Shown here: positions 7,930 through 60,340 of the stretch, one piece after another
How positions within the stretch are numbered: position 1 is the stretch's first letter
Layout: each line of letters starts with the position of its first letter
Source: Flammula alnicola
Taxonomy: Eukaryota > Basidiomycota > Agaricomycetes > Agaricales > Strophariaceae
Direction of reading: 5' to 3'
Length of the DNA stretch: 64,000 nucleotides
Assembly: GCA_015499995.1 (NCBI GenBank)
Contig: JADNRV010000033.1
Location: forward strand, 186,001 to 250,000
Notes under the pieces: generated by a model
What the model saw: only the letters and a program-made list of their open reading frames with translations
The model's database searches: none
What the model was told of the DNA's origin: nothing
Translations under genes and position numbers: made by a program

Positions 7930-8077
7930 GCCGTAACGAAAATGTCATATTATCAATAAAATCCAAAATAGGCCAGCACGTGAGCGACAGCTGTCGCGTC
8001 CCGGTCATTTCTTCTCGTCTCTCCTCATCCATCACCCTAATAGAAAACAAGAAACCGTCAGCGTTCACCATAGAATA

Positions 8078-42400: not shown

Positions 42401-42728
42401 GGATTTTGCAGGAAACGAAGCAAAGGTATTGGTGGGCGAAGGTTACCAGAACCTAGATTGAAAATAAATTAACATTATATTCATATCAAAGCAGCAGAAT
42501 GAGGAACGCCAAACCTAGGGATGTCTGTGGAAATAGGTGTATGCAGAAGAGGAGTCGACCAGCGCACTCGTTGAGGAATATTCGTCGACTCTGGATGCCC
42601 TTTTATAACATTTTGGCCAACCTTTCATCACGAATTCGAGCGCTCAGAAGCACCCATCCATATGATGGACCTTACACCGCCAACTTGTTCCAGAAAGTTC
42701 TGTAGCTAATTACCATATATAGTGTATT
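42401..42728. other. Upstream region of the metalloprotease gene
   Basis: Presumed promoter of the minus-strand protease gene, up to the KDZ-block boundary. A short plus-strand frame (42499-42705) is not recognisable. Confidence 0.4.
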
Positions 42729-42816
42729 ACCTTGTGTGACATAAGTACCATCAGTGATGGCCTAGCCTCACGAGCTCGTGCTGCCAAAAATACCCATCCA
42801 GGATGGGCGAGCTCGT
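42729..42816 (+). repeat. Left terminal inverted repeat of the KDZ element
   Basis: Matches 59231 inward on the opposite strand, with CGAGCTCGTG palindromes at about 42771 and 42805 as likely transposase-recognition repeats. Confidence 0.7.
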
Positions 42817-42970
42817 GAGAGGCCATGCGAGCTTGTTTCAGTCCAGCGGGCAAGGCCAAGCTGCCATGTCCTGCTGGAACAGCTTTCTCAGTAGATCCCT
42901 TATGTACCATCCCCAGTAATAATGAAATATATATTAATGTTATACTGTTATACATCCTACTGTTCCTGTC

Positions 42971-44003
42971 TCACAAGCCCCTTGCCTCTCTTTGCCTCTC
43001 CATACCCTCAATTACAAGCTCAATTTGAGCAAAAAGCTCCATCAAATTGTTGAGCCGGGATCTTGATGTTCGGGTTTGCTGGTCAATATCTGCAAGATAG
43101 ACCCGGAAGAGTGACGCCGGTGATATGAGAGTGGGTGAAAGAGCGTTGAATGTGGCTATTGCAGCAGCGGATGATTGGTGTGGGGGGTTTGGAAGAATAG
43201 GCCGTGGCGGAGGTGAAAGCAAAAGCGGGGCTGGGGGTGACGGGATAGGCAGAGGCAGATGCAGAGGCGGAGGGGCAGGCATAGACAGAGGCGAAGGTGG
43301 AGGTGGAGGCGGTGGTGGAGGCAGTGGTGGAGGTGATGGTGGAGGCGGAGGCGATGGTGGAGGCGGAGGCGATGGTGGAGGCGGAGGCGATGGTGGAGGA
43401 GGCAGAGGCAGAGGCAGAGGCGAAGGTGGAGGTGGAGGTGGAGTGAGACGCACAATGTTCGTGCTGCGTTCCGCCTCGCTCTCGACGGAATCCCCATCCG
43501 CGCTACTGGCATTTAACTCCTGGAATGTTGGAATGGGGGAATCCATCTGAACATCCATGAATTCCATCAGTGCAGCTATTCCGGTGCTTTGAGAGCTCTC
43601 CTGCAGGTAAGGTATGAAACAACTGAGCTAAAAAGACAAAGAAAAACTTACAGGTTGAGTGTCCATAGACATCCCAAATCTATCTCGAGGCATATTCTGT
43701 AGTCACTAAGTACATAATCAGTAGCGGAGCAGGAGGTACTTACATGTTCCGGCCTTGCTATCATTCTGAAAATATCCGTCATGCTATCCGGAGACGGTTC
43801 CTATTTCAGAATAAGTTAACAGCTCGAAAGTAGGTAATTAGACACTTACATGTTCCGGGCTGTAGATGACATCCCACAAATTGAATTCTCTGGATGATCC
43901 CTGTCCAAAAATCAGCCTCAGAGCCAAAAGGAGGGAAAGAACTTACCGGTTGCTCGGCGGGCACTGCAGTCATTGATTCATGTTTCTCTTTCGTGATTGG
44001 CAT
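42971..44003 (-). CDS. Polyproline-rich KDZ accessory protein
   Basis: Five exons with four phase-0 introns of about 45-50 nt: MPITKEKHESMTAVPAEQP, then SSREFNLWDVIYSPEH, then EPSPDSMTDIFRMIARPEH, then NMPRDRFGMSMDTQP, then ESSQSTGIAALMEFMDVQM onward. Two exons end in PEH before the same GTAAG donor. The last exon has about 70 residues of PPPPSP repeats, then an Ala/Leu-rich helical end (SRLNNLMELFAQIELVIEG). TGA at 42971-42973. It sits just inside the left inverted repeat and is divergent from the next gene. I do not recognise a family; the clean splicing argues it is real and intact. Confidence 0.65.
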
Positions 44004-44282
44004 GGTTGCTGGGTTTCCGCCAGCTTATTATAAGCAGCTGCGAGGTCTTGAGGACCGGTATTGTAATCTTTGGTGTTCATAGCAAACAGGGGAGTGGAAG
44101 GGACCAGTGACGTGCTCGACCTTCCGGTGGGTCTTGCAACAATGGTTCCGGTGGCGGTTGCCACAACGGTCACGTGCATGATAAACTTTAGACTTGCAAT
44201 TTTGATCAACCGACGCGTTCAACATTGCTTGCGTCATTCCACACCTACCTATCACACTTACTACACTGCCCTCTAAATTACC
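44004..44282. promoter_or_regulatory. Shared promoter of two divergent KDZ cargo genes
   Basis: 279 bp between two start codons on opposite strands. A CTACCTATCACACTTACTAC stretch lies shortly upstream of the plus-strand start. Bidirectional use is inferred from the spacing. Confidence 0.4.
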
Positions 44283-47200
44283 ATGTCTCATCAAGCTACG
44301 ACCTCCGCTGCCAAGTTTGAAGATGTCAAGCAGGCTTTCGCTGACCTGCACTCTGCGGCGGAGTCACTGGTCAAACACCGCTACCGCAATGCCGACGGAA
44401 CCACAATGCAGACCTATTTGATGGCCTTCCGGCGCAAATGCGTATGTGTTTTTATTGTGTTCAAAGCAATGCTAAACCGCAAGTACAGGGGATATTTAAG
44501 CTGCTAAGCACCAACCAGGCTTACATCCAGTCCCCCGGCTATCGAGAGTTCCTACAGTCGATATTCAATGCTCCGGCCCACAAAAATGTCTCCCACGCGT
44601 TCAGATTTTTCGGTACCCACGAAGAACACGTCGACAACTTGGAACTCGACCTGGCTTGGGATGATGACATTCTGCCCAAATCCGCCCTCCCCCCCCTTCA
44701 GAGCATCTTCTCCATGATCGGGCCCCCTCCGCCTAGGCCCAGTGGAAGCAACGCACCCCGAATCGACGCCAGGCCTCAACCGGAGGAAGTGGAATGGAGG
44801 GTGAGGGTAGAAGAGACGATGGACGTGGGGAGTATTCTGGCGAAGAACAAGGGGAAGGGGAAGGATATGGGCGAGGGCATGGATGTTGATGGGGTTAGGC
44901 TGGCTGTGGAGGGTCCAAGGGAAGAGTGGATGCAGGAGAAACAGGAGGTGGTGAAGACGGAGGAGATTCCAAGGGCATCAAGGACAAGAAAACGGACGAT
45001 CAAATCCGCCGCGTACATCGAGGAGTCTGATGAGGAGGAAGACGAACTGGCGATGTCTACCCCGGATCAGCCACCACCAGCCAAGAGAGCGAAATCCATC
45101 GCAAAGGACCTGCCCGCTGCCCCGCCGAAGCTGAAAAAGGTCGCGAAAGGGAAAGCCAGCAAGAGCGCGTGTGCCGGACGCAAGGTTCCGCTCCCAGAGG
45201 CCAAGCCCACTGCTGTCCCCAGTGCACCTGTTGACGACAGAGAGGTTTCAGAGCCCACCAGGAAGTTGCGTGAGCATCCACCTCCGGAACCCCAAGTTGG
45301 CGTTTACTGGGTCGATGTCAAGAATGTGGTCACCGGGGGAAGCTGTCGGAAGTGCAAGGAAAGAGGGTTCAGGTGCCTTGTGTGCTACGAGAAGCCGTAC
45401 GACCTACCGCAGCATGCACCGAAGAAGCTGAGCGACAAGCGCCAACGCCCCTACAAGAAGGTCGCTTGCCACCAGTGCAACAAACACAAGGACAAGTGCG
45501 AGTGGGGCGCTGCATTCACGCCCTCGATAGTTGCTGGAAAGGGAAACTCGGAAGCACCACCAGCGGAAGTTGAGGAGCAGCAACAAGCAGCGTTGGCTGC
45601 GGCGGCAGCCAATTCTTCGATTCAAGTACGTCCACCGCTCCCCCCTCGCACAGGCAACGCGGCCGCAGGACCTTCGCGCACGAGTCGCAGCCGTCCCACA
45701 CCCACCATCATCATTCCACCACCACGCGACCACAAGCACCCTCCCATTACCACCATCCAAGAGGTTACAGAGACGCCATCACCGCTCATCTCAGCACTGG
45801 TGAAACCCCGACCCCTGACGCCTCTCCAGCTGCCTCCTGTCAACCCAAGGTCAACCAGACGCCCCCAGAACACAAGTTGGGTGGACGGATGACCACGTCC
45901 AAGCACATGCCTGTATGAGACATCCACACACCGGTGCCCTCGTATGCGTCGTCGTCACGCGAGACGACAAAGACTCCGTCTAAGGAGACTCTGTGTAAGT
46001 GTTCCCTCGCAGGTCTATAACATCGACTAATTCTAAACAGTTGGCTCGCCGCCTCTTTCACTCGAGGTACTCTCCCGCCGGATCGGTGAAATCGAGTCCC
46101 AGCAATCGGCCATGAGGGCCTCCACCGTCACCCACGCCATGTTCGATGATGAGGTGGAGAAGATGATGGACCGATTTACAAAGGTCGAACTGATGGAGAC
46201 TAGGGTTCCGCAGGCGTTGGACCGCCTCCTCAATTCACGTCTCTGCGACACCGTCTCGACTCACGACTTGGAAAGGCGACTCGTGGAACGCTTCGAGGAA
46301 CACAAGATGGAGGTCGACCGCAGTGTGGATGAGAAGATTGCCCAGAGTATCGTGGCAGCGGAGATGGATGTTTACCGGAACGTCGACGAGAACATGGCTA
46401 CAAGTATTGGAGCTGCGGAGGATCGACTGGGGGCCAGGATCGATGAAGTCCGGAACGAGAAGGAAGCATTGTCAGCCGGATTGGATCGTCTTCGTGAGGA
46501 GTTGCACCAGATCGACGCTGGGTGGAGGGCGCATGGGGTGGAGGTGGACGAGAGGCTGGGAGGTGTCTGGAAGGAGCAGCGTGTGGCCAACGATGGGCTG
46601 ACGACTGCTCAACGCGACCTCAAGGCTGTGGAGGGCACGGTGGAGTACATGAAGGGGGCATATGTGGATGTGCGATTAGGGAACCAGTTGGCGGAGCATA
46701 TCCGGACTCTCCAGGAGAGTCACAAGGCTTCGCTCGACCAGCACAAGAAGCACATGGATACTCATGAGGCGTTCTTGCGGAGCATCGGAGGCATATGGAG
46801 ACGCTCTACTCCCATGTCGCCTCCAGAACAGTGTTCTGCTGCATGCTGTTGGTGACGCGCTCACCGGCACTCTTCCAGTAAGTGGATGTGACTCTGTTCA
46901 GAAACCGTAACTGATACAAACATACTAGAAACACCTTACATTGGCACAGGTGATCCCACCTGCATCGTCCCGGCGGATGGTCTCAACAGCGTCCAGCACC
47001 GTCCCGCCGGAACCACTCACAGCCCCTTCGTGCGTCGCGTATCACCCCTGCCCCGCCGTGCAGTCTCCAGCCCTGCATTCATCAATCCACGATTGTTGGC
47101 CATCGACCCGCATGCACCATCGACACCATCACCAAGAATCCAGGTGATCGCTCCGACTCCGACTGGCTCTCAACAGAGTCAAGGCGATGTTCCGGATGCT

Positions 47201-47386
47201 GGTGAGTGTGCAGGTGGATCACCTCTTTTCGCTGCTCCGGCGGAGCAACCTTCATCGCCACCAAGTGGAGGTCTGACCGGAAGCCAAGAGGCTTTCCACC
47301 AGTACATTGATGCCTCCCAGTTGGATGGTCCATCTGGGTTGACCCAATACCACTCGGACGATGACATGGATGCTCGCGATGCCTGA
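44283..47386 (+). CDS. Cysteine-cluster plus coiled-coil KDZ accessory protein
   Basis: ATG 44283 (MSHQATTSAAKFEDVKQAFA). A 47-nt intron at about 44442-44488 joins RRKC to GIFKLLSTNQAYIQSPGYRE. An acidic/basic linker follows, then CRKCKERGFRCLVC and, after about 30 residues, CHQCNKHKDKCEW. These are two CxxCx6C halves like a Zn2Cys6 cluster with a stretched loop. Introns near 45840-45880, 45915-45980 and 45990-46040 would remove in-frame stops and lead to LEVLSRRIGEIE and a long coiled coil (ERRLVERFEEHKMEVDRSVD). The C-terminus is Pro/Ser-rich, ending DMDARDA. One frame change near 46793 is not explained by a usual intron. DNA binding is inferred from the cysteines. Confidence 0.6.
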
Positions 47387-47506
47387 TTTATAGTTTTTTA
47401 TATATGTACATTCCTCTTGTTGTCTTGGCCTTGTCCCCCTCGTTTATAATGCATTGGGACACTTGTATTTGCAAACAGTGTGAATCGTTATAACTAAGTA
47501 ATAAGT

Positions 47507-50116
47507 TTATCCCCGGGCTTTAGCTTTCCAAGTTGGCTTTCTCTCCCTTTTTCCCACAACTTCCGGTGGTGGAGTAGGATCCCTTGTGCGACGTTTCTTG
47601 GCCTCCGCCGGCACTACTTGATCATTCGATGCATTTCCAACCACAGAAGCGACTTCTGTGACCCTTGATCGTTTTCCAAGGGAGCCGGATAACGTTCCGG
47701 CTGGCTTGGTGCAGTTGACTGGCTTCGTGGTAGGCTTATGTGCTTTGGAGAGTGCCGCCGGAACAGTAGGCTGATCGATCACCTGTGAGTGGGCTATTGG
47801 CCGGTCTTCATTTGACACTGGTGTAGTGCTTGAGAATGCCAAAAATGTCATAGGCTGTGCGAGCGAGGGTTCCGGCAGAGTACGTGTTGATTCCGGCGGC
47901 GTTGGCTTCACTGGCGAGGTGGACTTCCTTTTCATTTTGGCCGGAAGACTTGCTCCGCCGGGGATCCACTCAGCCACATGGCTGTTAGAGGGAACTGATG
48001 TGCCTTCCGCGGTCCGCTTCCATTCGTGATGTCTGCTTTGTGTTTGCCAGGTACTCACTGCCATCAGGAGTGCTTTGATCTCGTCATGTAGATTGGGATC
48101 GAACTTGTCCAGATGTGGATTGGACGACTTGGTGGAAGACTGCGAAGTGCAGATGCAATTCCGGAAGTGCCTTGGTGTACTCCGGAGGTGTAGTGCCTTC
48201 TTGACTATGTCGCAAGCTCCCGTTCCGGATGGAGTGATAGTAGCCGGTGGAACTGCCGCTGTGCCACCATTGACTTGTCTAGGAAACTTTGAGCCCTTTT
48301 ATCGAATACTTCAGACTCCACCATATATTGGTCATAGTCGTTCAATCCGGAATCATCGCCTATGTCTTGATCCAATGGAGCCGGCTCCTCATGGATACCC
48401 TCGAAGTCGATGGAGCTCTCGCTCCCATCATCTGAGTCACCACTATCAGAGCCGAATCCGGCTCCCCATCTGATGATACACTGCCGGAGTCGCTGCAGAT
48501 CCTCTGACTCCACAGAAACCTGCCGGGCTTTACCTTTGCCCTTCCTCGTCTTGGCCTTTGGCGGTGGGTCTGCGACCGGAGTAGCATCCTTAGATGCTGG
48601 TTTAGTTCTCTGCTTCTGCTTCTGTTTTCCTTTCGCGCGTCCGGCACCACGTTTGCCTGAAGGTTTTGGCTGCGAGTTGATGGCCGGAGCTGCAGGTCCT
48701 GTGTCGGCATCATCATTGTGCTCCGGATGCGAATGCTCCTGGATTTCTGGTGCGAGCTTTCGTTCGAATGCTTCCACTAAGTCTCCATCCTTCGAGAGAT
48801 AATGTGAGAACCGGAATGCGGCGTCATCATCTGTGTTGGTTGCTTCCTGTTTCCTGTAAAGGTGTTTTAGGATTTGCAACGCCTCTCCTCCTTCAACTCA
48901 GATGGCTCCTTGAGTAACGTCAAAGTCGCATCAGACATGTATTCCGGCTTAATGCAATACCGTGCCAGCGGCAGGAATTTGGCCCAGGGAATTTTGGGTG
49001 CTTTCCCGGAAGCAAGCTCTGGATATAATCAGTCACTTTCCATGCCATGAGAGGAGGCTTGAATACCGTAATGCAATGCCAAGAAAGCCCGGAGCAGGCC
49101 TTGCCAATATGCACGACCCTTCATTCCGGATGGCACAACCTCCGGGTCTGGAAGGACTGGTTCTCCATACTGGTTCGTCGTCAACTCCATCAATCCCCTC
49201 CTCGGCCGGTAGGTACTGAAGGTCGGGACGTCCTGGTCTGGCTCGTAATATGTTGTATTGTGTTGTAGCCAGTCACGACTGGTAATTCCGGCACTCTGAA
49301 AACTGGCATTCGCAGTTAAATAACTTTTTCCGTTCCCTAGGGTGTCATTGAAATCGAGTTGGGTGCATGCGATCTTTCCATTGGGCCGTTTAAAGGAGAC
49401 GAAGAAAAGCATCCGGGCCCCATGGCTAACCACATTTCCTGCGCGAAGTCTGCGAGTTTCTTGGCCGTATGTTTTTCTGCTAATCTGAGAGAGGTCAATT
49501 TGGAATGGGAAGCGATTTCGTGGCACTCACCTAGCCTTTACCTCCGGCTTTGGGCCCTCATTATTCCACCTAGCAGCTGTTGCCCTCAAGGATGCTTTAT
49601 CTTCTTCAGACAGCTTCTTCCAGACATGAGTCAAGGCAATTTGGAAGAAGTTAAAGTCACTCTTGGGATTCTTTCCCTTCGCAACAGCAGCGTCGTATAG
49701 TTTCTTCTGTTTCTCCTGGACCGGTTCCGGTTTGAGGTCGTAAAGCACATCTCTTCCTGTCCAGTGCTTCGTAGCTTTCTTCGCTCGCTTGACTTGGGCA
49801 TGGGATGCAAGCCACTTCTTCGTTTTCAATGCCAGACCTTCCCTCTCCTGGCGCTTCAGCTTCTGGTTTGCCGGCAAGGCAAGAATGGCGTTTCGGCATC
49901 CTTAACAAGTCTCGCTCTGTCGGATTTCTTGGTGAGTGCCTGAATTTTTGCCTGGACCTCCTGGAGGATCGCCTTTTCCCTTTGAGAGAAATTTTGGACA
50001 GTAATATCGTTCCCTTCTACTTCTTCAGTGGAGGGGATGTCTTCAACTAGTTCAGTCTCTCCATCTGGGGGTTGAATGTCGACAGTGTTCGAGGTGGTGG
50101 ATGATTCAGCATTCAT
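47507..50116 (-). CDS. Basic KDZ accessory protein with HMG-box-like segment
   Basis: Start taken at ATG 50116 (MNAESSTTSNTVDIQPPDGE); an upstream non-ATG extension is possible. A 44-nt intron (GTTAAG..CCAG) gives KLKRQEREGLALKTKKW. Then comes DFNFFQIALTHVWKKLSEED and RATAARWNNEGP, which resembles helices 2-3 of an HMG box. The next exon reads RKTYGQETRRLRAGNVVSHG and FVSFKRPNGKIACTQLDFND, then a 48-nt intron into ELASGKAPKIPWAKFLPLAR. C-terminal parts are Lys-rich, then acidic (GSDSGDSDDGSESSIDFEG), then basic (KKRRTRDPTPPPEVVGKRER). Exon joins near 48880 and 48064-48205 are unresolved. Divergent from the transposase gene. A chromatin or DNA-binding role is inferred. Confidence 0.5.
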
Positions 50117-50368
50117 GGTTGGAGAAAAGAACGTTTTCAACACAGATATTGGTTTCCTTTTCTGAATGTTTGTGCCCAGGACAGGCACAGTTTTAAGCTC
50201 TGATGTCGAGGAGGTATGATCGAGATCGACATTAATGCTACATTGTGATCGATCATACCTATAAATGGCAACTGATTAGCCTGATGTGGTAATGATCAGG
50301 GCCTTGAGATAACACCAGACATAACACATGTATCTCCCTCACCCTCACCTTGTCTTTCAACCATCCAC
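50117..50368. promoter_or_regulatory. Shared promoter of HMG-like gene and KDZ transposase
   Basis: 252-bp divergent intergenic region. It contains the palindrome-like pair TGATCGAGATCGA and TGTGATCGATCA near 50217-50255. Bidirectional function is inferred. Confidence 0.4.
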
Positions 50369-53300
50369 ATGCCTAACTGGAAGGAAGCGTCACCGCCTGC
50401 AGATAGCTACGATATTACTGTCAGCCAGACCAAACGTGGACAGGTTCAACATCTCAAAAAACAAAGGCAGCCTATGAGTGAATCTTCAGGTTCCCATCGC
50501 AATCAAGCGAAGAAGGGGCAGCAGGCAACTACAACTCTGCCACCTAAGGAGTCTAGTCCAATACTTGATCAAATCCCGGATGATGCTTTCAATGTATACT
50601 TCACTCCTGAAGACTTGGTCAGGAAGGCCGCCAATGTAAGGGATGACCATCCATTGAATATAATATGCTTTTATCTTGTTCGTCAACAGACATCCCATGA
50701 GTATATGCGACAATGGCTACCTCTCCGGCGGCAATTTCTTGACATCATTCTCGAGCGTGAAGCACCCCCCTCAAATATTCTTTGTACCAAGTGCAAGACA
50801 TGAAACTTCAAGATCCGTTGTGCTGATTGTCTAGGCAATCCGGTGCTCTGCGTGCAATGCTGTCGAAACTCTCATGAAGACCACCCTTTTCATAGAATAG
50901 AAATTTGGTCCGGAACCCATTTCTCTCCTGGTTGGCTCTGGCAAACAGGAGTTGCGATTCATCTGGGACATGGGGGTAATCGCTGTCCCTCTAATCAGCA
51001 TATGGATCAAGAAGTGGAATCCCTCATAAGCACATTACCGTCCACGTTTAATGACACTGGAGCTCAAGATATGGATGAGGACGACTCAGATGTTGAAGAA
51101 CCTGATGGCGAATATGGATGGGCTGGCTCAGGCCGACCGCCTCACCGAGATCTTCACGGTGCCCCCATAGTTGTGGTTGTGCATACCAATGGTGTCCACC
51201 ATCTGCCAATTTCCCTTTGTTCATGTCCATCTGCTCCGGATCCGATCACTCAATATCTACAAATGGGATTCTATCCCTCGACATATAAGCAAATTGAAAC
51301 TGTTTTCACCTTTCAGGTTCTGGACGATTATAGGCTCGAAAACTTGGAATGTCAGACTTCTTGTCACCATTACTATTCCAAGCTCCGCCGGATGACCAAT
51401 AGTATCTTCCCTACATCTGTGCCGGTAAGCAATTCATCAAGTCTCCATGGTCCGGAAGGGTTAATTATGTGACTAAATGCAGGATCGGAAACGTGAGCTA
51501 GCCAGGGCAGAGAGACAGTGGAGAAACTTAAAGGAGTGGAAATGGTTTGGCTTTGGACACACTGATGCGATCCCGGGGGATACAGACCTTGCCCTTTTTT
51601 GCCCGACATGCCCTCAGCCCGGAGTAAATCTCCCAGATAACTGGGAGGACGATGAATACCAGTGGAAGTATTTCCGGAGCTTCGTTGTGGATGGAAACTT
51701 TGTGGCAGCTCACCAACAGCAATTGCAGACAACTGATGACGTTTGGATCAAGGATGGCGAAGGGTTTATGACCCGCCGGGCACCCTATTTTGACCATCTC
51801 CGATGCACTACAGAAATCCGAGATGTCAGTTCGACGATTCCACCTTGTGCATATGTTGATTCTAGAGTTTGAAACAGCCGTGCACATGTAATGAACATCG
51901 AGCTGTGCTGGATCGCTCGAAGCCGCACAAAGGCTGCGATGTGACCGGAATTGGTGCATTTGCTTGCCTCCGGCATGGATGTTATTGTCCCGGATCCATC
52001 GTGGACTTTCAAGTAGGTGAACGTCAGATGAACGTGGATTACGGACTGGTGCAGGCTTTCAACAATACGTGGACGGATCAAGCGCCAAAAATAATCGTCG
52101 TCTACGACATCAACTGTCAGTATTCTAAGAACCTCCGCAAGCGTGTGGAGGCCGGCCAATATCTCCATTTCCGCCCAGGACTGAACCTCGTTGCCGGAAT
52201 CGGAATGTTTCATGTTCATGGTCATCAGGATGTCTGCTATGGGCGATACGCACCACGCTTTATCCCGGGGGCAGGGCAGAGTGATGGAGAAGTACTTGAA
52301 CGTCTGTTCTCCATTCTGAATGGGATCAGCACTATCGCCCGGACTATGACTTTGGCTCATCGAACTGAAAATGTGGATGCTCATATGGGCGATAACAACT
52401 TCAAGAAAATGATTGATATGGGCGAGTTTTTCATTCCGAGGGGTCTAGATAACTGCTCATCTTCGACGATCCTCCAGTTCCAACCTTGTGCAAGAAATGG
52501 AAAAATGTCTGCTCTTCTGCAATTGACGCTCGCTCTGATTTTGAGCTCCTCAGCCAAAGTGCTACTCCGGAGCAAACTGAGTTATGGACAGCGTCTGTCC
52601 AGACAGCTGAACACCTCCGGGAGGAAGGCAATGTGGAAGCGATGGACATTTACAATGTCAAAGGCATCAAAGGTGAGCGTGAGTTACCTTGCAAGTAGTA
52701 CATTCCTGACAAAGTCGCAGTCATTCCACAGACCGAGATTCAGGCAAATCTGATGCAAGCAGAGCAAGAGGCAGACTCCGGAGTCGGTGTCACCACTTGG
52801 CTTGTAGCTGGAATGAAGATTCAGGAAGCACAGTTGAGCATCCCCGAGCTGACTCTGACTCCAACACTGATAATATATAGGGCTCAACTGGTATCATTCA
52901 TTTGCCGGCAAGGCAAAAAGCCTTCAGGGGACCAACGACTCCAAATTAACCGGAAACGTCAGGCACTGCGGAGAAAGGCTGATGAATTTCAAGACTCCTT
53001 CCAGCAGCTATTCCCCGCTGTGGCACTGGATGGTGTCGACCTTCGAGAAATCCCGTACGGAGATGATGTTCTCGGAGACGATGAGGATGAGGCATACCTG
53101 GCTGCAGTTCCACGTGGAGAAGTCGAAAAGATGGAAATCTTCCTTCCATCAACATGTCCAGGAGAGCTCCCTCGCCAATTGAAGACTGCTGCGAAAGTCG
53201 AGCTCAAGCTGCGCATTGCGCAGGCAGAAAATGCCCTCGAAGGTGTTCGCCGGGAAATTGGTCACAAGTCTTTTTTGTTCCGGAATAACATCGCACTTGC

Positions 53301-53924
53301 CATCAACAAGCAAATGAAGACGCGCGCATATAGCGCAGTGAAAGCAGCAGATGATGAAGTCCGGCAGTTCGTCAGAGTGTACAATCAGGCCCGGAATGCT
53401 ATTCTGGCCTTGGGATGCTCAGAGGAAATAGCTTCCCGGTACCAAAGATTACTCCCGGAGCAATTGGTTGCATTGAAATCCATATATGAGCCGAATGCAC
53501 GGGGAGCCGGAACATACTCCTTGCCTTGGTTTTGGATGTTGCAAGTGGGTAGCGACTCCGACTCTTCTGATACATGGATGAATGTATGTCCCCTTATCCA
53601 TTCTACAATTCTGCAGTCGAACTTTGCCACACAGTATACCGGGTCAATTGGATGCGTGCGCGTGCTAAAATGCTGCGTTGGGAAGAAGAATCCATTCTCA
53701 TTCCCTCTGAAATGAAATGGACAATGTTCTTCTTCCACAACCGTGCCAACGGATGGAAGACACGGGAAGCGATGTCACACAAGGCGGGGCATCAAGCATA
53801 TGCACGAAAACAGGTGGCGATGTGGACCGAGCTGGCGGAGCATGCTCAGACAGCCTTTACTTCCTGCCTCATACGTTACACTGTGCCGCCGTCGATGGAG
53901 GATCACCAGATGCATGGTAATTAA
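50369..53924 (+). CDS. KDZ (Kyakuja-Dileera-Zisupton) family transposase
   Basis: Transposase of the KDZ class. ATG 50369. A CxC2-like cysteine cluster follows: CTKC, RCADC, CVQCCRNSHEDHPFH, RIEIWSG. Then QLGHGG-like IHLGHGGNRCPSN, an intron at about 51424-51480, LALFCPTCPQPGVNLP, FVVDGNFVAAH and WIKDGEGF. An intron at 51825 leads to CTCNEHRAVLD, TGIGAFACLRHGCYCPG, VDFQVGERQMNVDY, IIVVYDINCQYSKNL, MFHVHGHQDVCYGRYAP and GAGQSDGEVLERLFSILNG, all core KDZ signatures. The C-terminal half is helical, ending MEDHQMHGN. TGA at 50801-50803 lies in the cysteine cluster; a 51-nt in-frame intron-like stretch (50784-50834) spans it. A frame change near 52460 is unresolved. Flanked by cargo genes on both sides. 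Confidence 0.88.
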
Positions 53925-54977
53925 TGTTTATGTAGCATCCCCCGGGCAGTTATTTTGTACCTAGTGTGCATATGAGTTACTTCTCATGAAACAAGCCTAG
54001 CACGTTCATGGCATGCATTGCTCGCCGGACGCACCCCGCCGGCAGTCCCTGCCGGCAGTATGAATGCTGCAACTGCTTGCTGCCCACTTGGTACATCAAC
54101 CATGCACTCTCATAATGCCTCCGCCGGACCCACAAATTTGGTGCATAGAGTACTATACCCTCGCAGTATTCATTTCCGTCCCCTGGTATATGCAGGGTGC
54201 AGCACGTTCATGCGAGATCCCGCCAGCAGTACGAGTCCTGTTCGCCTGATGAGCCGGCAGACCCACATCTGGTAGGATTGCAGCCTCGGGGCACAGCAGC
54301 AGGACTTGACATGCAGGCTCAGATAACAGTGGATCCCGCTGGGAGTGCGATTCCGGGGGGATTACTGCCACCGGCAGGCATTCCCGGCCGCATTGTGAGG
54401 TGCTAGCAGGGCCACATCACATCCCGCTCATGCTCCGTCGCAATGGAGAACCTATCCCGGAAATACAACTGCGGACATAAGACTGCCAGAATCGCTGCCG
54501 CCGACATCGCGAGCCTCCTGGAAATGCGACGCCGCCGGCCTAACTGCTGCCGGCAAAGCGATAGCTGGTTGCATGCCATGGTGGGGTTGCAATTGCAGTG
54601 CCATAATGGCCGCAATACCATCCCGGCGGCATTATCTCCTACTGGCAGTGCGCCAAGGACACGACTGCATCACTCACGCTGCCCTCCGGCATGCACTTCT
54701 GACTCTCCCACCAATAGGACCCGGCGGACATGCTGCTGCCAGAGTCGATATCCGGCGGCATTGCCCTCCCGCCGGCATTGGGTGTGACTGGAATTGCTAG
54801 TCCCAAATATCGCCTCCTGCTCACGCTGCTCTCTGGCAGGCAATGCCCACCGGCCAGCATACAATGGTGCAGTACCTTCCTGCCTCCACCAGCGCATGAC
54901 TCATCTGATGTGACCATCCCTGGACCTTCCAGAGCCCTCTGCTATTGTGACGCACAACTCTTTGTCTCAAAGCAACT
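53925..54977. other. GC-rich, CCGGC-dense spacer
   Basis: Unusually rich in CCGGCGG, TGCCGGCAG and CCCGGCGG words, many palindromic (for example CTGCCGGCAG around 54050), and in CpG. Frames across it are Ala/Pro/Arg/Cys-rich with no coding signature. Probably non-coding. Confidence 0.6.
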
Positions 54978-55608
54978 ATGTCCGCCTTCGACAACGATGA
55001 TTTCTTGCAAGTTGCAGCTCAATTGCTCCAAATGTCCATGGCAGATTCTCAGGCTTATCTCAATTATCTCTCAAGCAGACTTCGCGTAATGGCATCGCTG
55101 TTTTTTGGCCGGAACGTGGCCGCTCAGGATCCTGACATTTACACGTGGTTTACGGAGAACATGTTTCGGGAACTGGTAAGTGGCAACCAGCGGATGCAGG
55201 CCTGGCTTAATTTCAAGATAGACCAATGCTATCACAGTCCTGGGCTGTCTCACAAGTGGTTCCCGAGTGTTGGAGGTCCCCCAATACCTCAGACGATGCA
55301 TGCGAGGCCACCCCCACCTCTCCAAGTGTTACTCCGATAATGATTCCGACATACCAGACTCGCCCATCAATGGACTTGGCGACCATTGGTATACTCAAAT
55401 ACCGCTCCGGCTGGAAGTACCAAAAATGCACGATCTCTTGACAACATGGAGCTGCCAGAATCTCATGGTATATATACTTTACTCATTGTCATTCTATCTA
55501 CCAACTAATGAGACTGGAAAGGCTGAAATGACAACAGCATTTACACTGGCCTCCCTCTCGGATGAGGGACTTCTCAGCCTCAAGAGTGCTTATGAGAAGT
55601 ACCGCTGA
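54978..55608 (+). CDS. Small KDZ accessory protein
   Basis: ATG 54978 begins MSAFDNDDFLQVAAQLLQMS, then YLNYLSSRLRVMASLFFGRN and IYTWFTENMFREL before a GTAAGT donor. The intron ends at CTATCACAG near 55220. The following sequence fits best as VLEVPQYLRRCMRGHPHLSK and LRLEVPKMHDLLTTWSCQNL, which needs a frame change after the splice; a second intron (GTATAT..AATGAG) leads to ETGKAEMTTAFTLASLSDEG and a stop at 55608. I do not recognise a family. Helical and soluble in appearance; same strand as the transposase and 1 kb after it. Confidence 0.45.
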
Positions 55609-55871
55609 TAGGGCGCAGTGCGGTCCACCCGTGGAATTTTGCGATTTCCCAATCATTAGAACTATTACACTAGGGTATCAAGGGTAGGCAGTATACCTCG
55701 TACTGGCCAACTAAGCAGATTGCACATGGGAAACCACATAATCCAGTACAACAGAAGTAACTAGCTACGGTCCAGAGGATCTAGCTAGTAAGCTCAGAAG
55801 TACATATAAAACAAGGTTAATGTTAAAGAAGCATGACCTCTGTGTGTAGCTGTGAATCCAACAAGAGGCTT

Positions 55872-56360
55872 CAACTGGAGAAACCCGCGTAGAATGAGAA
55901 TCCCGAAGTCTTGTGGTGCACATAGTCTAAATATAGACTGGCCATTAGACGCGTCAATCTGGACATGCATGTCATGTGACCAGGAAAGCGGACATAGTCC
56001 AGATGCACCCACCTATGCATTACACGCGTAGAATGACCCATTGCTAGGCTTAGTCCAGTGACACCAGAAACCCGCGTGGAATGGGAGTCCAAAAGCGCTG
56101 TGGCGCACATAGGCTAAATATAGACCTGTCATTAAGTGCGCCTATCTGAACATGTATGTCATGCGGCCAGAAAAGCGGACACAGTGAAATGCGTGCACCT
56201 ATGCATTACACGCATAAAACGCACCTATGCATTACATGCGTAAAACGGCTCATTGCTAGGCTTAGTCCAGTTGCCGTCTAGACTCCAGAAACACGCGGAA
56301 AAGCAATTTCTGAGGAAACCATTCTGTGGCTGTGTCAAGCCGAGACGGCAGAAACCCGCG
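55872..56360 (+). repeat. About 200-bp direct repeats with GAAACCCGCG boxes
   Basis: Two long units (from about 55880 and 56068) share, in order, GAAACCCGCGT, CACATAG.CTAAATATAGAC, CATGTCATG, AAAGCGGACA, CTATGCATTACACGC and TTGCTAGGCTTAGTCCAGT. Partial units follow near 56285 and 56350, and another box lies near 57017. Confidence 0.8.
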
Positions 56361-56699
56361 CCAAATGTTAGCCACTATGGTGTCCCGCAGCCGGTGTCGG
56401 TCTCTCAGTTTCCTGCATAGACTCATAATCACGACACCATGGACCAGTAACAGTAGAGCTATTATATGCATAGAATCATATGCAACATGTAGAGGCTTGG
56501 CACACAGTAGGTATAAATACGCTTGTAACGCATGTAGTACAGTAGGAAATCCACCCCGCGTCGATCCACTATAGTGGAGGCAAAGGAGATTAAACCTCGT
56601 CTTAACCGACTAAAATTAATAGAGACCCAAGTTTGACACTTCAAAATAACTTTGTGATCAGTGCAAGTTTGAGGAGTTGGCAAAGCAAAGTTTAACGCG

Positions 56700-57000
56700 G
56701 GTTCTGTAAAGTTGTAGCGTGTGTCCGTCGTGTCCACGTGAAAGTTGTAGTGCATACCCGTCGCGGTCCCTGCATGAAAGTTGTAGCACATACTCGTCGA
56801 GGTCCCTGTGTGAAAGTTGTAGCGTGTGTCCGTCGCGGCAGCGTGAAAGTTGTAGCACATACCCGTCGCGGTCCCTGTGTGAAAGTCATAGGTTGTTAAA
56901 GTCAAGTTAAAGTTGTAGCGCATACTCGTCGAGGTCCCTGCGTGAAAGTTGTAGCGTGATCCCGTCGTGGTAGCGTGAAAGTCGGAGTGCATACTCGTCG
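56700..57000. repeat. Minisatellite, GTGAAAGTTGTAGC units
   Basis: About eight imperfect units of 30-37 bp with the core GTGAAAGTTGTAGC followed by a variable CGTCG(C/T)GG and CCCTG. On the minus strand the frame stays open through the array (56462-57109), giving a YNFHAGTATGMC-like repeat protein. Coding status unknown. Confidence 0.8.
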
Positions 57001-57201
57001 TGGTCACTGCACCCAAAAACCCGCGTAGACTTGTTTTCAGGTGTAGACTTGTTTTCAGGTCGAAGCACTTATCCTTTTTCATACATTGCCCCCGAGACTC
57101 GCAACACAAGACTACGTCTAGTCAAGTTGTTGGTTTGGTGGTTGGTTGTTTTGAGTGTAGAGTTCTTTCTGCACCAATAACCAGCTCATTTCCAACTTAG
57201 A

Positions 57202-57489
57202 CGAAACCTAGCACTTTACCGCGAGATCCTCCGGGCCGCCATCGAGCAAGAGACAGCGCGCTATAATCAGCTTATAGACGAGCGTGAGGCGGTTCAAACG
57301 GCTCTCATCGAGGCGGAACGTGTTGAACGACAGGTGATGGTTAGGAAGCTGACTGATGCCATGTTTGAAGATGTCGACTCGGATGAGTCCTCGGAGAATG
57401 ATCAAGAGATATTTGCTTCAGAGCAGCCGGTTCCTGGTGTGTCTGAAACAGCACAAGAATCCAGTTCAGAGGTAGAAATTGTAGAGTAG
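57202..57489 (+). CDS. C-terminal exon of an acidic coiled-coil protein
   Basis: An open frame follows an acceptor (TTTCCAACTTAG) with RNLALYREILRAAIEQETAR, then LIEAERVERQVMVRKLTDAM, then a Glu/Ser-rich end (SDESSENDQEIF) and TAG at 57487-57489. Heptad-like spacing suggests a coiled coil. No start or upstream exon could be assigned; the repeats before it may hide one. Convergent with the TET/JBP gene, whose stop lies 25 bp away. Confidence 0.45.
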   Translation, partial: RNLALYREILRAAIEQETARYNQLIDEREAVQTALIEAERVERQVMVRKLTDAMFEDVDSDESSENDQEIFASEQPVPGVSETAQESSSEVEIVE

Positions 57490-57513
57490 TCATTACATTC
57501 CATATTCCTCTCA

Positions 57514-58777
57514 CTATCGTCTAATTTTTGGCCTCTGGTTAACTATATCAAATTGATCCCCATGCTCTATGATTTCCCAGAATGCTCCCTGTGTCATCCA
57601 CTGCCTATACCCTTGCTCCTTGAGGCTGTCATTTCCGGCATGATGGTCCATTGGGTTTGCATGAAAATATTGAGCAAAACACACTCTTTGACCCTTTACC
57701 TTGTCAACCTTGTGTGCCAGAGCCTTTCCACACAATGCGATCATGGTTCCGGCATCATATTGGAATTTTAACCCGAGTGCCGGAACGTCGAAGGTGAGAT
57801 CAGCATACCACCCCATAGTAGTCAAAAGGTCGTAGAACTCCAGGATTCCCCTCCAATCGCGATGCTCCGGGGACTCTTTGTTAGAGATGACGGCCATAGC
57901 GGTGAAGGGAGTTGGCCAAAAACGCCGGGATTCTTCCATCCCGGTGAGTGATGATTCCTGAAGCCCTCCCTGCCGAATCCGCTCCATTACTTCACATGTC
58001 CGCCGGGCTAGCCTTGGATGCAGGAGCCATAACGTGGCTCCGAGCAGTGCCAAGCTCTCGTTTGCGTCGCGGAGGAAATGAAGACCGGTCGGCTCCTTCA
58101 AGATGGGGGATGAACTGAATGTAGGGTGTCTGACCGCATTCCAGCACGGTGACATGGACAGTTCTCCGGTGGTGATCTGGGAATCCTTTGGATAATAAAA
58201 CCCTGACTTCCGGGATGATTGGCCGGCGTCAGTATTTTGCCGGGTGGTCTGGGACAAGTGCTGGTTTAACGGGACTAGTTGTCCCATGAACGCATTCTTG
58301 ATATCAAATTCAGTCATGGAATGTGGAGAACAAGTGATTACTTACGTGTCTTCGAATTGTCAGAGCGTCCGGTAGGTACCACAATACGATATTGTCTTCC
58401 GAGTCGACAACAATACATGGCATTTTGATGAGCTGGAGTGCACCGGGGGTAAGAGGCGGAAAATCCTTCATGAGATCCGCCTCCAACTTGGCACTTCTGA
58501 CGTTCTGACATGCAGTTAGCCGACTGCTATACTCCCGGATTGACCAAGGGAGGTGAACTGTCATGTGAAGGTTATATAAAAGCTGACAACTGATCCTTTG
58601 ACACTTACTTTTGTATCGGAATGCGCTTAGGACCTTCTGCATTAGGTGGTGGCAGTCATGTAGCAATTCCGGGGATATGTGTTCCGGTTGGGTGGTTGTA
58701 TGTCTGTTATTGACCTCCAGTCAGAGAGCCCGTTGCAGATACTCTCCCAGAAGTGATGTAGACATGTTCCTTGCCAT
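57514..58777 (-). CDS. TET/JBP-family 2OG-Fe(II) dioxygenase
   Basis: Predicted nuclear dioxygenase acting on 5-methylcytosine (or thymine) in DNA. ATG 58777 (MARNMSTSLLGE). A 39-nt intron at 58742-58704 would remove an in-frame TGA; otherwise ATG 58642 is the start. Next exon HLPWSIREYSSRL, then LIKMPCIVVDSEDNIVLWYL. After an intron at 58345-58297 comes the double-stranded beta-helix: NESLALLGATLWLLHPRL, RRFWPTPFTAMAVISNKES, PEHRDWRGILEFYDLLTTMG (HRD = HxD iron site), LGLKFQYDAGTMIALCGKAL, AHKV (distal His) and GQRVCFAQYF (2OG-binding Arg). TAG at 57514-57516; about 370-385 residues. Catalytic residues are all present. Adjacent to the right inverted repeat of the KDZ element, as known for fungal TET/JBP genes. 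Substrate and activity are inferred. Confidence 0.85.
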
Positions 58778-59231
58778 GATTAATGATTATGGGCAACGTT
58801 GAAATTGAATTATGCACATTATATACTGCCTTGAGGCTGCCATGAGGGTTTTCCTGAGGAATCACCCCCGGCGGGACCCTGGATTTGCAGTCCCACTGCA
58901 AATTCTGATTGTGAAATGGCTCTGGCATAGCAATTACATATATTACTGAGCAAGAGGCTGAATCTATATAATATATGTACAAAATCCTCTCCCCCCCGGC
59001 CCAAAAACACCAATTTGACGAGCTCGTCCATCAATGGAACAAGAGCTCGTCCATGCTTCCAAGGGGTGAACAGCTCCGCCATCAGCCCTGATGGTGGGCT
59101 CATCTATTGATCTACCCCGAGCTTGCCCATCCCTTAATTAACACGAGCTCGTCCATTGTTAATGGGTAAAAATAGCCACCACGAGCTCGTGAGGCTATGC
59201 CATCAGTGATGGCACCTTAGTCACACAAGGT
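58778..59231 (-). repeat. Right terminal region of the KDZ element
   Basis: Dense GAGCTCGT(C/G) words at about 59019, 59041, 59140 and 59181, plus the inverse of the left terminus. Probably also contains the dioxygenase promoter. Candidate transposase-binding subterminal repeats. Confidence 0.65.
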
Positions 59232-60340
59232 GTCACATGGCTAGTGGGAATTTCTATTGAACGTCCTGCTTGTTCAGATCTCAAAATCAGACTTGAGCCC
59301 AAAAAGTCTTGGTGAATAGCTCGAACTTCAGCTGTATGGATATCTTGCACGCACGTATCTATCTCTGTCACTGATGATGATGAGTCAATGGCGCTCCCAG
59401 GAATCAAGCTTTCCCCGATGGTTTGGCTGTTCGTTGGATTAGTGATAGATATCTATAATTAGATATCTATTAGTATAATAAAAACTTTTCCCCTGCAAAA
59501 TATGACGGCAAAATTCAAACAACTTCCTGAGTATTTTGACCCCCTGGCAAATAGTTTGAGCACAGCAGTGTACTTGTAATTGAATGCATTAAAACAACTC
59601 GGAATAAGCTTTCTGGCTGCCTGATGGCATGTGAAGCCGAAAGCTGGGCACTCAGGCTCATGGCATGGATATGTTTTTCTGAGGTCTGTCCAGTGAGATT
59701 TTGGGCATCTATCATCAAATATGAGAAGATCATGCCCTCAATAAATAATTTGGGGATCTGTGAGGCCAATAAAATGAAAAATGAACCTTATGTGTTCAGA
59801 AATTCAATTTTATGATTTTTTTGGGTCAATAATCCAGGACCATCCTCGATGTACGCTCGAGATATGTTTTCAGTCAGGCAAAAAAGAAGCGTGATGGCGG
59901 GTTGATGGAAGCCCCCTGGCCGACAAGCTTCAGAAACAGGGCTTCTCAATAACAAAAGTTTATTTGAATGTGTGTCTCAGAGAAAGGGGGTTTCCCAGGT
60001 TTTCACAAAAATATGCAAGCGCAGTAACACATGTCACATTCTTTCATTAGAAAATCCTCGCATCATGATGCCGCTCTCTTGAAAAGTTCCTGCACCGTGG
60101 TCAAAAATTCTGAATTCTGAAAGCTGATCGCTGTGCCTGAGAGCTAGCCTGTGAGATCTCGCTCTTCCAGCAGGACGACTTTCCGATATTGAGAACTGCC
60201 AGAGATCGCAAAAATAAACAAAATGCTGAACATCAATGCGGGTCAGATCTGGCCAATCGTTTTACAATCAGCTCGTCGGCCTTGGACAATAACTTGTGAT
60301 ACCGATAACCTCAATGCTAGCCATTCAATTCACTAGGTAT
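59232..60340. other. Intergenic, no gene recognised
   Basis: AT-rich. The last 60 bp resemble the downstream flank of the other Hsp70-like copy. Short frames have no motif. Confidence 0.45.

Follow-up and report, generated by a model that had tools for sequence, protein, structure and literature searches.

A TET-bearing KDZ transposon of Flammula alnicola with a family-specific CpG-containing exon motif and a possible VANC-like anti-silencing system

Results

The window, a stretch of 64,000 nucleotides from Flammula alnicola (contig JADNRV010000033.1, positions 186,001 to 250,000), contains a complete transposon with a KDZ transposase gene and a TET/JBP dioxygenase gene (Table 1). By our count the element has six genes, one of them split in the window copy by a nested repeat. 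An earlier note on this DNA had listed seven gene models with two divergent pairs, and five genes besides the transposase and the dioxygenase. Both divergent pairs were retained, the gene count was lowered to six, and the further genes numbered four.

Table 1 Features of the window copy (family A), with positions in the window.
Feature	Position	Strand	Description	Basis
Whole transposon	42691..59268	.	16,578 bp, CAGAAAGTTC...GAACGTCCTG	homology borders and target-site duplications
Target-site duplication, left	42684..42690	.	CTTGTTC	duplication comparison, sequence
Target-site duplication, right	59269..59275	.	CTTGTTC	duplication comparison, sequence
Subterminal inverted repeat, left arm	42729..42817	+	terminus in the earlier note	sequence self-comparison
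Subterminal inverted repeat, right arm	59142..59231	-		sequence self-comparison
Gene 1	42971..44006 (limits approximate)	-	low-complexity proline-rich protein	start read from sequence
Gene 2 (BDZ97DRAFT_1917929, P0004)	44283..47386	+	cysteine cluster and coiled coil; proposed motif reader
Gene 2 cysteine cluster	45343..45499	+	CX2CX6CX2C-x27-CX2CX6C	sequence and paralogue comparison
Gene 3 (BDZ97DRAFT_1917930, P0001)	47507..50116	-	HMG-like helices (presumed) and conserved region
CxC2-KDZ transposase gene	50285..53924	+		Pfam
Gene 4	54978..57489 (parts 54978-55605 and 57217-57489)	+	split by nested repeat in window copy
Nested unrelated repeat	55606..57216	.	outside the transposon proper	other copies and genome matches
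TET/JBP dioxygenase gene	57514..58720	-	N-terminal exon uncertain, possibly to 59030	Pfam
CCGGA/TCCGG sites	42971..59030	.	109 sites, nested repeat excluded; 7.3 per kb of element

The Pfam profiles proposed in the earlier note were all found, with CxC2 (PF18803) within 50804-51469 (E 5.5e-25), KDZ (PF18758) within 51866-52753 (E 9.4e-41) and Tet_JBP at E 5.4e-14. The predicted dioxygenase is related by sequence to CcTet of Coprinopsis cinerea (PDB 8jkk, 7vpn; E 8.8e-20), with equivalent metal and substrate residues. The alignment confirmed the intact HxD, His and Arg that had been noted before, and the equivalents of His326, Asp328, Gly331 and Asp337 were retained.

All seven cysteines of the gene 2 cluster were invariant among 6 paralogues. 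Their spacing, CX2CX6C...CX2CX6C, resembles that of Zn2Cys6 (Gal4-type) proteins, but a Pfam search with an E limit of 10 gave no Zn2Cys6 match for gene 2 of this family (A) or of a second family (B, below). No Pfam match of gene 2 exceeded the cut-off, the best being a coiled coil (E 0.049), PDB gave no relevant match, and the AlphaFold model was poor (pLDDT 41.4). The AlphaFold model of gene 3 was also poor (pLDDT 40.0), with three helices at 112-167. We take these helices to resemble HMG; the HMG-box profile had no Pfam match in P0001. In protein searches with genes 2 and 3, in which the best 7998-8000 candidates by shared words were scored, all hits (6 and 1, respectively) came from Flammula alnicola. 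Gene 4 had no Pfam match of note, and its reading frames were uninterrupted in the copies C281 and C314.

Ratios of dN/dS were 0.46 and 0.39 for the main exon of gene 1 (42971-43627) against two copies, 0.22-0.78 for the exon pieces of gene 2, and 0.52 and 0.23 for the first part of gene 4. Gene 3 of the window copy had more than 10 single-base deletions relative to both other long copies, so that either its frames are broken in this copy or the assembly is wrong.

Homology to other copies placed the left border at 42688-42691 in 16 of the 18 fetched loci aligning there, and the right border at 59268-59271 in 21 of 22. The ends are thus CAG and CTG, at 42691-59268. Among 13 complete copies, a set that excludes one copy (L019) with a rearranged right end, 12 had a perfect 7-bp target duplication. 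Across the genome there were 40 matches to the element ends, and the bounded element is therefore not due to chance. The earlier note was right about a bounded KDZ and TET/JBP element and wrong about its ends: inverted repeats as true termini (42729/59231) were rejected, since the homology borders of other copies extend beyond them. The repeats start 37-38 bp inward of the true ends and comprise an outer block (42729-42783/59177-59231; 55 nt, 87% complementary) and an inner block (42791-42817/59142-59168; 27 nt, 81%). They sit in full-length copies and not in unrelated MITEs. CGAGCTC/GAGCTCG sites were found near the ends, at 42771, 42808, 59019, 59043, 59144 and 59182, with one further internal site at 53199.

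The stretch that interrupts gene 4 was missing from the other copies covering it and was flanked by TACCGC (55600-55605 and 57217-57222). It is a member of another repeat with 93 genome matches, and gene models within it were therefore rejected as element genes.

Above the Pfam cut-off, which left out 6 weaker hits, 16 of 26 TET/JBP hits had a KDZ domain no more than 6 kb away, and all 16 had the same tail-to-tail order. The condition that the earlier note set for refutation, a TET/JBP gene outside every other KDZ copy, thus did not hold. Sequence of the 16 loci was examined for three members of family A, in full or almost so, and for three of family B, with C119 nearly complete and C548 and C49 covered in their 3' half; the other seven family B loci were assigned from hit tables. 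Family B has no nucleotide similarity to family A in the same genome, and its gene order and strands were identical, as seen in C119, the single locus read nearly whole. The two families have homologous versions of gene 3, and gene 2 was present at 9 of 9 testable family B loci. The gene 2 proteins of the two families missed each other in reciprocal searches at E 0.001, and their shared origin thus rests on position and architecture. A search for the left end of family B did not find it. A second family with matching layout but without nucleotide similarity is new here.

The density of CCGGA was 7.3-8.0 per kb in the three long copies, compared with 1.37 per kb in the 47 kb window flank. In the window copy, 87 of the 109 sites lay within 9.5 kb of exon pieces. 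Synonymous-codon shuffling, with protein and codon usage held fixed, was applied to 15 pieces of family A and 11 of family B; K1, K5, K7 (KDZ), T1 (TET) and gene 4 were omitted. CCGGA occurred 87 times in family A exons against a shuffle mean of 32.8 (maximum 48 in 200 shuffles; z 10.2) and was the top-ranked of 512 5-mers. The exons of family B had CCGAG as their top word, with 69 occurrences against a mean of 31.0 (maximum 42; z 8.2; first of 511). Neither family was enriched in the other's word (11 against 19.1 and 25 against 25.3 expected). The enrichment recurred when only the homologous KDZ and TET exons of A, B1 (C119) and B2 (C49) were used, and in each of these the motif exceeded its mean in every one of the six frame/strand classes. 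The synonymous shuffles and the six classes led us to reject a codon-pair or amino-acid cause, and CpG decay as the sole cause was rejected by the two different words in one genome. In host ORF sets from one window the highest z was 5.1, and CCGGA scored -1.9 and -0.8. Such a private CpG-containing 5-mer in each family, running through coding exons, is also new here.

Density of CCGGA peaked mid-element, in the exons of gene 3, and the terminal 280 and 238 bp held no site. The earlier idea that the element marks its own ends accordingly found no support; it is the coding body that is filled. Outside the exon pieces, 14 CCGGA were counted in 3.0 kb, a stretch that includes part of gene 4 and does not give a noncoding density.

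Between the close relatives C119 and C548, 49 of 55 motif sites were kept, compared with 68.3% for any 5-mer (p 6e-4); the corresponding values for the window copy and C314 were 50 of 60 and 72.8% (p 0.08). The distant pair C119 and C49 had just 16/63 and 16/66 sites in common, with similar site numbers.

Motif CpGs were retained above other CpGs in 6 of 6 directed, mutually non-independent comparisons among three live copies, with Fisher p <0.05 in four (0.004, 8e-5, 0.013 and 0.011). From C281 to the window copy, 88/103 motif CpGs and 495/621 other CpGs were kept (p 0.23), and from C314, 80/100 and 437/616 (p 0.07). CCGG without a following A was not favoured. In a CpG-decayed copy, L024 (CpG o/e 0.24), 8/53 motif CpGs and 73/373 other CpGs were kept (p 0.57).

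Ten gene-less relatives of 5.9-7.6 kb, here called satellites, keep the element ends and a motif array. All ten had a perfect 7-bp duplication and 17.7-22.1 CCGGA per kb; the tandem motif arrays that were observed were those of a satellite, L011, and not of the autonomous copy. These motif-dense satellites are new here, as is the better retention of motif CpGs between live copies. Satellite motif CpGs were kept in 6057 of 7040 cases, compared with 34431 of 36961 for GpC, and any protection is therefore partial at best.

Discussion

The element fits TET+ Kyakuja, the KDZ-TET elements already published from Agaricomycetes (Kojima 2025, PMC12730594), with its clade placement made by target-site duplication and host class. 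In the parts of that paper used here, the shared traits are the KDZ transposase with an AG-type TET/JBP, a 7-bp duplication, CA..TG ends and the fungal class. Kyakuja-1_LB and -2_LB of Laccaria are described there as having no TIRs, whereas the present element has long subterminal inverted repeats; TIR absence is stated for these two families only and was thus not taken as defining. The words 'zinc' and 'HMG' have 0 occurrences in its main text, and in the parts of that text used here we noticed no Kyakuja accessory genes, element-wide motif or motif-array satellites. Likewise, our search of the literature on KDZ-TET elements, with the founding PNAS 2014 paper outside its range, found no element-wide motif or accessory zinc-cluster gene. 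The function of transposon-borne fungal TET/JBP is described as not experimentally validated (PMC12730594, in part).

We see an even chance that this Kyakuja-type transposon carries a sequence-addressed, VANC-like anti-silencing system. Its steps of binding, recruitment and demethylation, which we infer, would be as follows. A family-specific CpG-containing 5-mer is held dense along the body, exons included (CCGGA here, CCGAG in the sister families). The cysteine-cluster/coiled-coil protein of gene 2 would most likely bind the motif, perhaps with the gene 3 protein; the gene 4 protein could be the reader instead. The motif-bound reader would bring the TET/JBP dioxygenase to the element, where oxidation of 5mC would keep copies unmethylated and mobile, with the host at large not demethylated. 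Satellites would exploit transposase and address in trans through their retained ends and motif array. The earlier suggestion that the element escapes silencing by editing methylation is thus plausible, and the motif together with the pattern of CpG decay lends it indirect support; the demethylation itself is putative.

A precedent is VANDAL/VANC of Arabidopsis, with an element-encoded anti-silencing protein and short family-specific motifs (PMC5735166, PMC10398659). In the excerpts of these papers used here, the motifs likewise differ between related families and form fast-diverging tandem repeats, and silencing control is likewise element-encoded, which for the present element is a proposal. 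VANC motifs lie in noncoding regions, whereas the CpG-containing motif of the present element lies in exons, and VANC is apparently not itself a demethylating enzyme, whereas the present element encodes a dioxygenase. The VANDAL transposase is MuDR and not KDZ. The present element may thus resemble VANC in its mode of action without being a VANDAL. In maize Spm/En, the DNA-binding protein TnpA acts on repeated CpG-bearing words in subterminal repeats and reduces methylation. There the words are confined to the ends and no dioxygenase is present, whereas the present element has its motif in the body and a dioxygenase.

Among other explanations, the transposase or a synapsis protein could bind the motif, which would then serve transposition and not epigenetic control, with satellites keeping arrays to be mobilised. 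Subterminal repeats serve transposases of other superfamilies, and the mobile satellites, with perfect duplications in 10 of 10, have the densest motif. However, no motif site lies in the outermost 280 and 238 bp, the density is highest mid-element, and the ends bear a different repeated word, GAGCTCG; we consider this role unlikely. It is less probable still that TET marks the element and does not free it, motif-directed oxidised methylcytosine being a silencing or copy-control mark. Oxidised methylcytosine has been tied to TE silencing in Laccaria and Coprinopsis (PMC8889193, in part), but the tendency of motif CpGs to be better retained in live copies, and the many insertions with perfect duplications, suit freedom from methylation better. 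Of nearly the same low probability is a motif unread by any protein, left by mutational, methylation-context or gene-conversion bias on repeated DNA. CpG decay is clearly active, as in L024, and contexts can decay unequally; against this, two families in one genome have different top words, each without the other's, the absolute motif density exceeds that of undecayed flanks, and the sites show constraint between close relatives but turnover between distant ones. That this is an ordinary TET+ Kyakuja with passenger genes and nothing past the published kind would agree with its duplication, ends, KDZ and AG-type TET residues (PMC12730594, in part), but is very improbable given the same layout in a family without nucleotide similarity, dN/dS below 1 and the family-specific motif.

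Returning to the anti-silencing system, we tentatively propose, at slightly under even confidence, that each family writes a private CpG word into its own exons as an address and carries its own reader and demethylase. The words would diverge so that each family unsilences only itself, and satellites would be parasitic address arrays.

Fungal TET/JBP genes have multiplied as cargo of transposons, and a family-specific CpG-bearing exon motif offers a concrete targeting hypothesis for the action of each enzyme on the element that carries it. Ranking 5-mers after synonymous-codon shuffling is a route to such systems from sequence alone. If the hypothesis is true, a selfish element with both address and enzyme performs sequence-addressed demethylation.

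Borders and copies of the element

The 74.4-Mb assembly containing the window (C257:186001-250000) held 40 end matches to the 92-bp left inverted repeat. Alignment of the fetched copies placed the element borders (Table) outside the inverted termini that the earlier note had taken as the ends. All 13 complete copies shared the start CAGAAAGTTC and the end CCTG, and 12 had a perfect 7-bp duplication (CTTGTTC at the window copy). Three complete copies were long (window, C281 and C314; family A). The other ten, gene-less "satellites" of 5.9-7.6 kb, had their ends alone in common with the window copy; all ten carried the duplication and therefore move.

The only complete copy without a perfect duplication was that on C281. 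Its left flank, including CTTGTTC, was shared with the window copy, its right flank differed, and its identity to the window copy was uneven, almost complete in gene 3 and about 86% in exon 1 of gene 2. It may be a recombinant, a haplotype or an assembly join.

Table. Coordinates of the element and of associated features (window positions unless a contig is named)
Feature	Position	Remarks
Element borders	42691 and 59268	Left in 16 of 18 loci, right in 21 of 22
CGAGCTC/GAGCTCG words near both ends	42771, 42808, 59019, 59043, 59144, 59182	6 of the element's 7; candidate transposase sites
Left flank shared with C281 copy	from 42366	To limit of fetched sequence
Cluster of single-base deletions, window copy	46772-49889	Within 3 kb; suggests fresh decay or a fault of assembly
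Stretch with no gene claimed	54399-54797	dN/dS 0.72 and 0.85
Nested repeat	55606-57216	TACCGC on either side
C281 copy (L009/L010)	C281:27400-42900	
Long relative L024	C201:288900-298800	CpG o/e 0.24
Piece related to nested repeat	C434:82728-83521	Adjoins lone TET hit on C434
Five top-scoring TET/JBP genes, no KDZ hit within 6 kb	C323:355796, C235:392351, C268:24478, C588:20551, C779:212696	Scores nearly equal; perhaps carried by another element type

Gene content and constraint

The window copy carried six genes, in the order gene 1 (-), gene 2 (+), gene 3 (-), KDZ (+), gene 4 (+) and TET (-), with two divergent pairs, and with KDZ and TET tail-to-tail around gene 4. Pfam domains (CxC2, KDZ and Tet_JBP) confirmed the KDZ transposase and TET/JBP gene reported earlier inside the element. 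The window TET matched CcTet (E 8.8e-20) and retained the equivalents of His326, Asp328, Gly331 and Asp337, whose roles are taken from PMC12730594.

When exon pieces of the window copy were compared with the two other long copies, dN/dS was below 1 in nearly all: 0.23-0.43 in the main TET pieces, 0.05-0.60 in the main KDZ pieces, 0.39-0.46 in gene 1, 0.22-0.78 in gene 2, 0-0.80 (where defined) in gene 3 and 0.23-0.52 in the first part of gene 4. The exception was a short overlapping piece, K5 (1.40 vs C314). Values near 0.72-0.85 say little, because the stretch without a claimed gene gives the same.

Gene 4 was interrupted by the nested repeat in the window copy and uninterrupted in C281 and C314. 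This insert was present in no other copy covering that stretch, and is a separate repeat, not transposon sequence; it had 93 genome matches and internal tandem units of 33-69 bp. Window gene 3 had more than 10 single-base deletions relative to both other long copies.

A second family with the same layout

A KDZ hit lay within 6 kb of 16 of the 26 TET hits above the cut-off, facing the TET in all 16; this pairing combined two hit tables, six weaker TET hits being omitted. Ten of these 16 loci were assigned to a second family, B, three of them read (C119, C548 and C49) and seven assigned from hit tables (C59, C77, C447, C415, C264, C9 and C590). A blastn comparison of C119 with the window element gave no match at E 1e-4, whereas the KDZ and TET proteins of C119 matched. 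Gene 3 was homologous between the two (local score 168 vs 88 in the best of 200 shuffles; BLASTP E 3e-11). Gene 2 of C119 had the same design, CX2CX6C...CX2CX6C plus a coiled coil. The gene 2 proteins of A and B did not retrieve each other at E 0.001. A minus-strand frame occupied the expected gene 1 position in C119, as did plus-strand frames the gene 4 position between KDZ and TET in C119 and C49. Family B gene 2 was found near nine of the ten loci; the contig of the remaining one, C77, starts 4.9 kb before KDZ.

A different word in each family

The window element contained 109 CCGGA/TCCGG in 15.0 kb (7.3 per kb; C281 8.0, C314 7.8, window flanks 1.37). Synonymous codons were permuted 200 times inside exon pieces, leaving protein and codon usage unchanged. 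CCGGA occurred 87 times in the 15 family A pieces (9.5 kb) against a shuffle mean of 32.8 and maximum of 48, ranking first of 512 5-mers (z 10.2). In C119 (11 pieces, 8.6 kb) the leading word was CCGAG, with 69 against a mean of 31.0 and maximum of 42 (first of 511, z 8.2). The same test gave no CCGGA enrichment in B and no CCGAG enrichment in A. Within homologous KDZ and TET exons only, CCGGA again came first in A and CCGAG in C119 and C49, CCGGA ranking 503rd of 510 in C49. The highest 5-mer z in two host control sets (26 putative ORFs of at least 140 aa) was 5.0 and 5.1. The excess was strong in most but not all pieces, counts being reached by at least 10% of shuffles in 5/15 (A) and 5/11 (C119). 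In A, C119 and C49 alike, each of the six frame/strand classes had more sites than the shuffle mean, which rules out a codon-pair effect as the source. The terminal 280 and 238 bp of the element contained GAGCTCG in place of the motif, which had no site there.

Between C119 and C548 (89% identical), 49/55 motif sites were kept, vs 68.3% for any 5-mer (p 6e-4); between the window copy and C314 it was 50/60 vs 72.8% (p 0.08). C119 and C49 (59% identical) had similar motif numbers despite sharing few sites (16/63 and 16/66; any-5-mer chance 10.6%). The sites are constrained between close relatives and turned over between distant ones, the pattern shown by functional binding sites.

Motif CpGs were better kept than other CpGs in six of six directed comparisons of live copies, with a margin of 0.057-0.180 (p values from Fisher's test 0.004, 8e-5, 0.013, 0.011, 0.07 and 0.23), these comparisons being non-independent as drawn from three sequences. 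The satellites carried CCGGA at 17.7-22.1 per kb, in a tandem array in L011, and CpG o/e outside CCGG was 0.36-0.45 in the three computed. Pooled over ordered, hence non-independent, satellite pairs, 6057/7040 motif CpGs, 8743/10964 other CpGs and 34431/36961 GpCs were kept.

Proposed mechanism

The most likely explanation is that an element-encoded protein would recognise its family's word and recruit TET to the element. VANC (PMC5735166 and PMC10398659) is the analogous case: related families have different short motifs, as A and B do, but its motifs lie in noncoding repeats. TET+ Kyakuja elements are already described in PMC12730594. In the literature searched there was no sign of an element-wide word or of its family specificity, nor of motif-array satellites or a conserved layout.

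Gene 2 is the favoured candidate reader on its sequence features. Its cysteines lie within an invariant core of six paralogues, and Gal4-type clusters bind CCG/CGG triplets. It had no Pfam match above any cut-off, and its predicted structure model was poor. Gene 3 or gene 4 could possibly be the reader instead.

The low CpG of L024 is a trace that methylation and deamination would be expected to leave. It kept 8/53 motif and 73/373 other CpGs of the window copy, a similar loss (p 0.57), and read TG or CA at 42/53 and 240/373, respectively. L024 is a natural record of CpG loss in Flammula alnicola.
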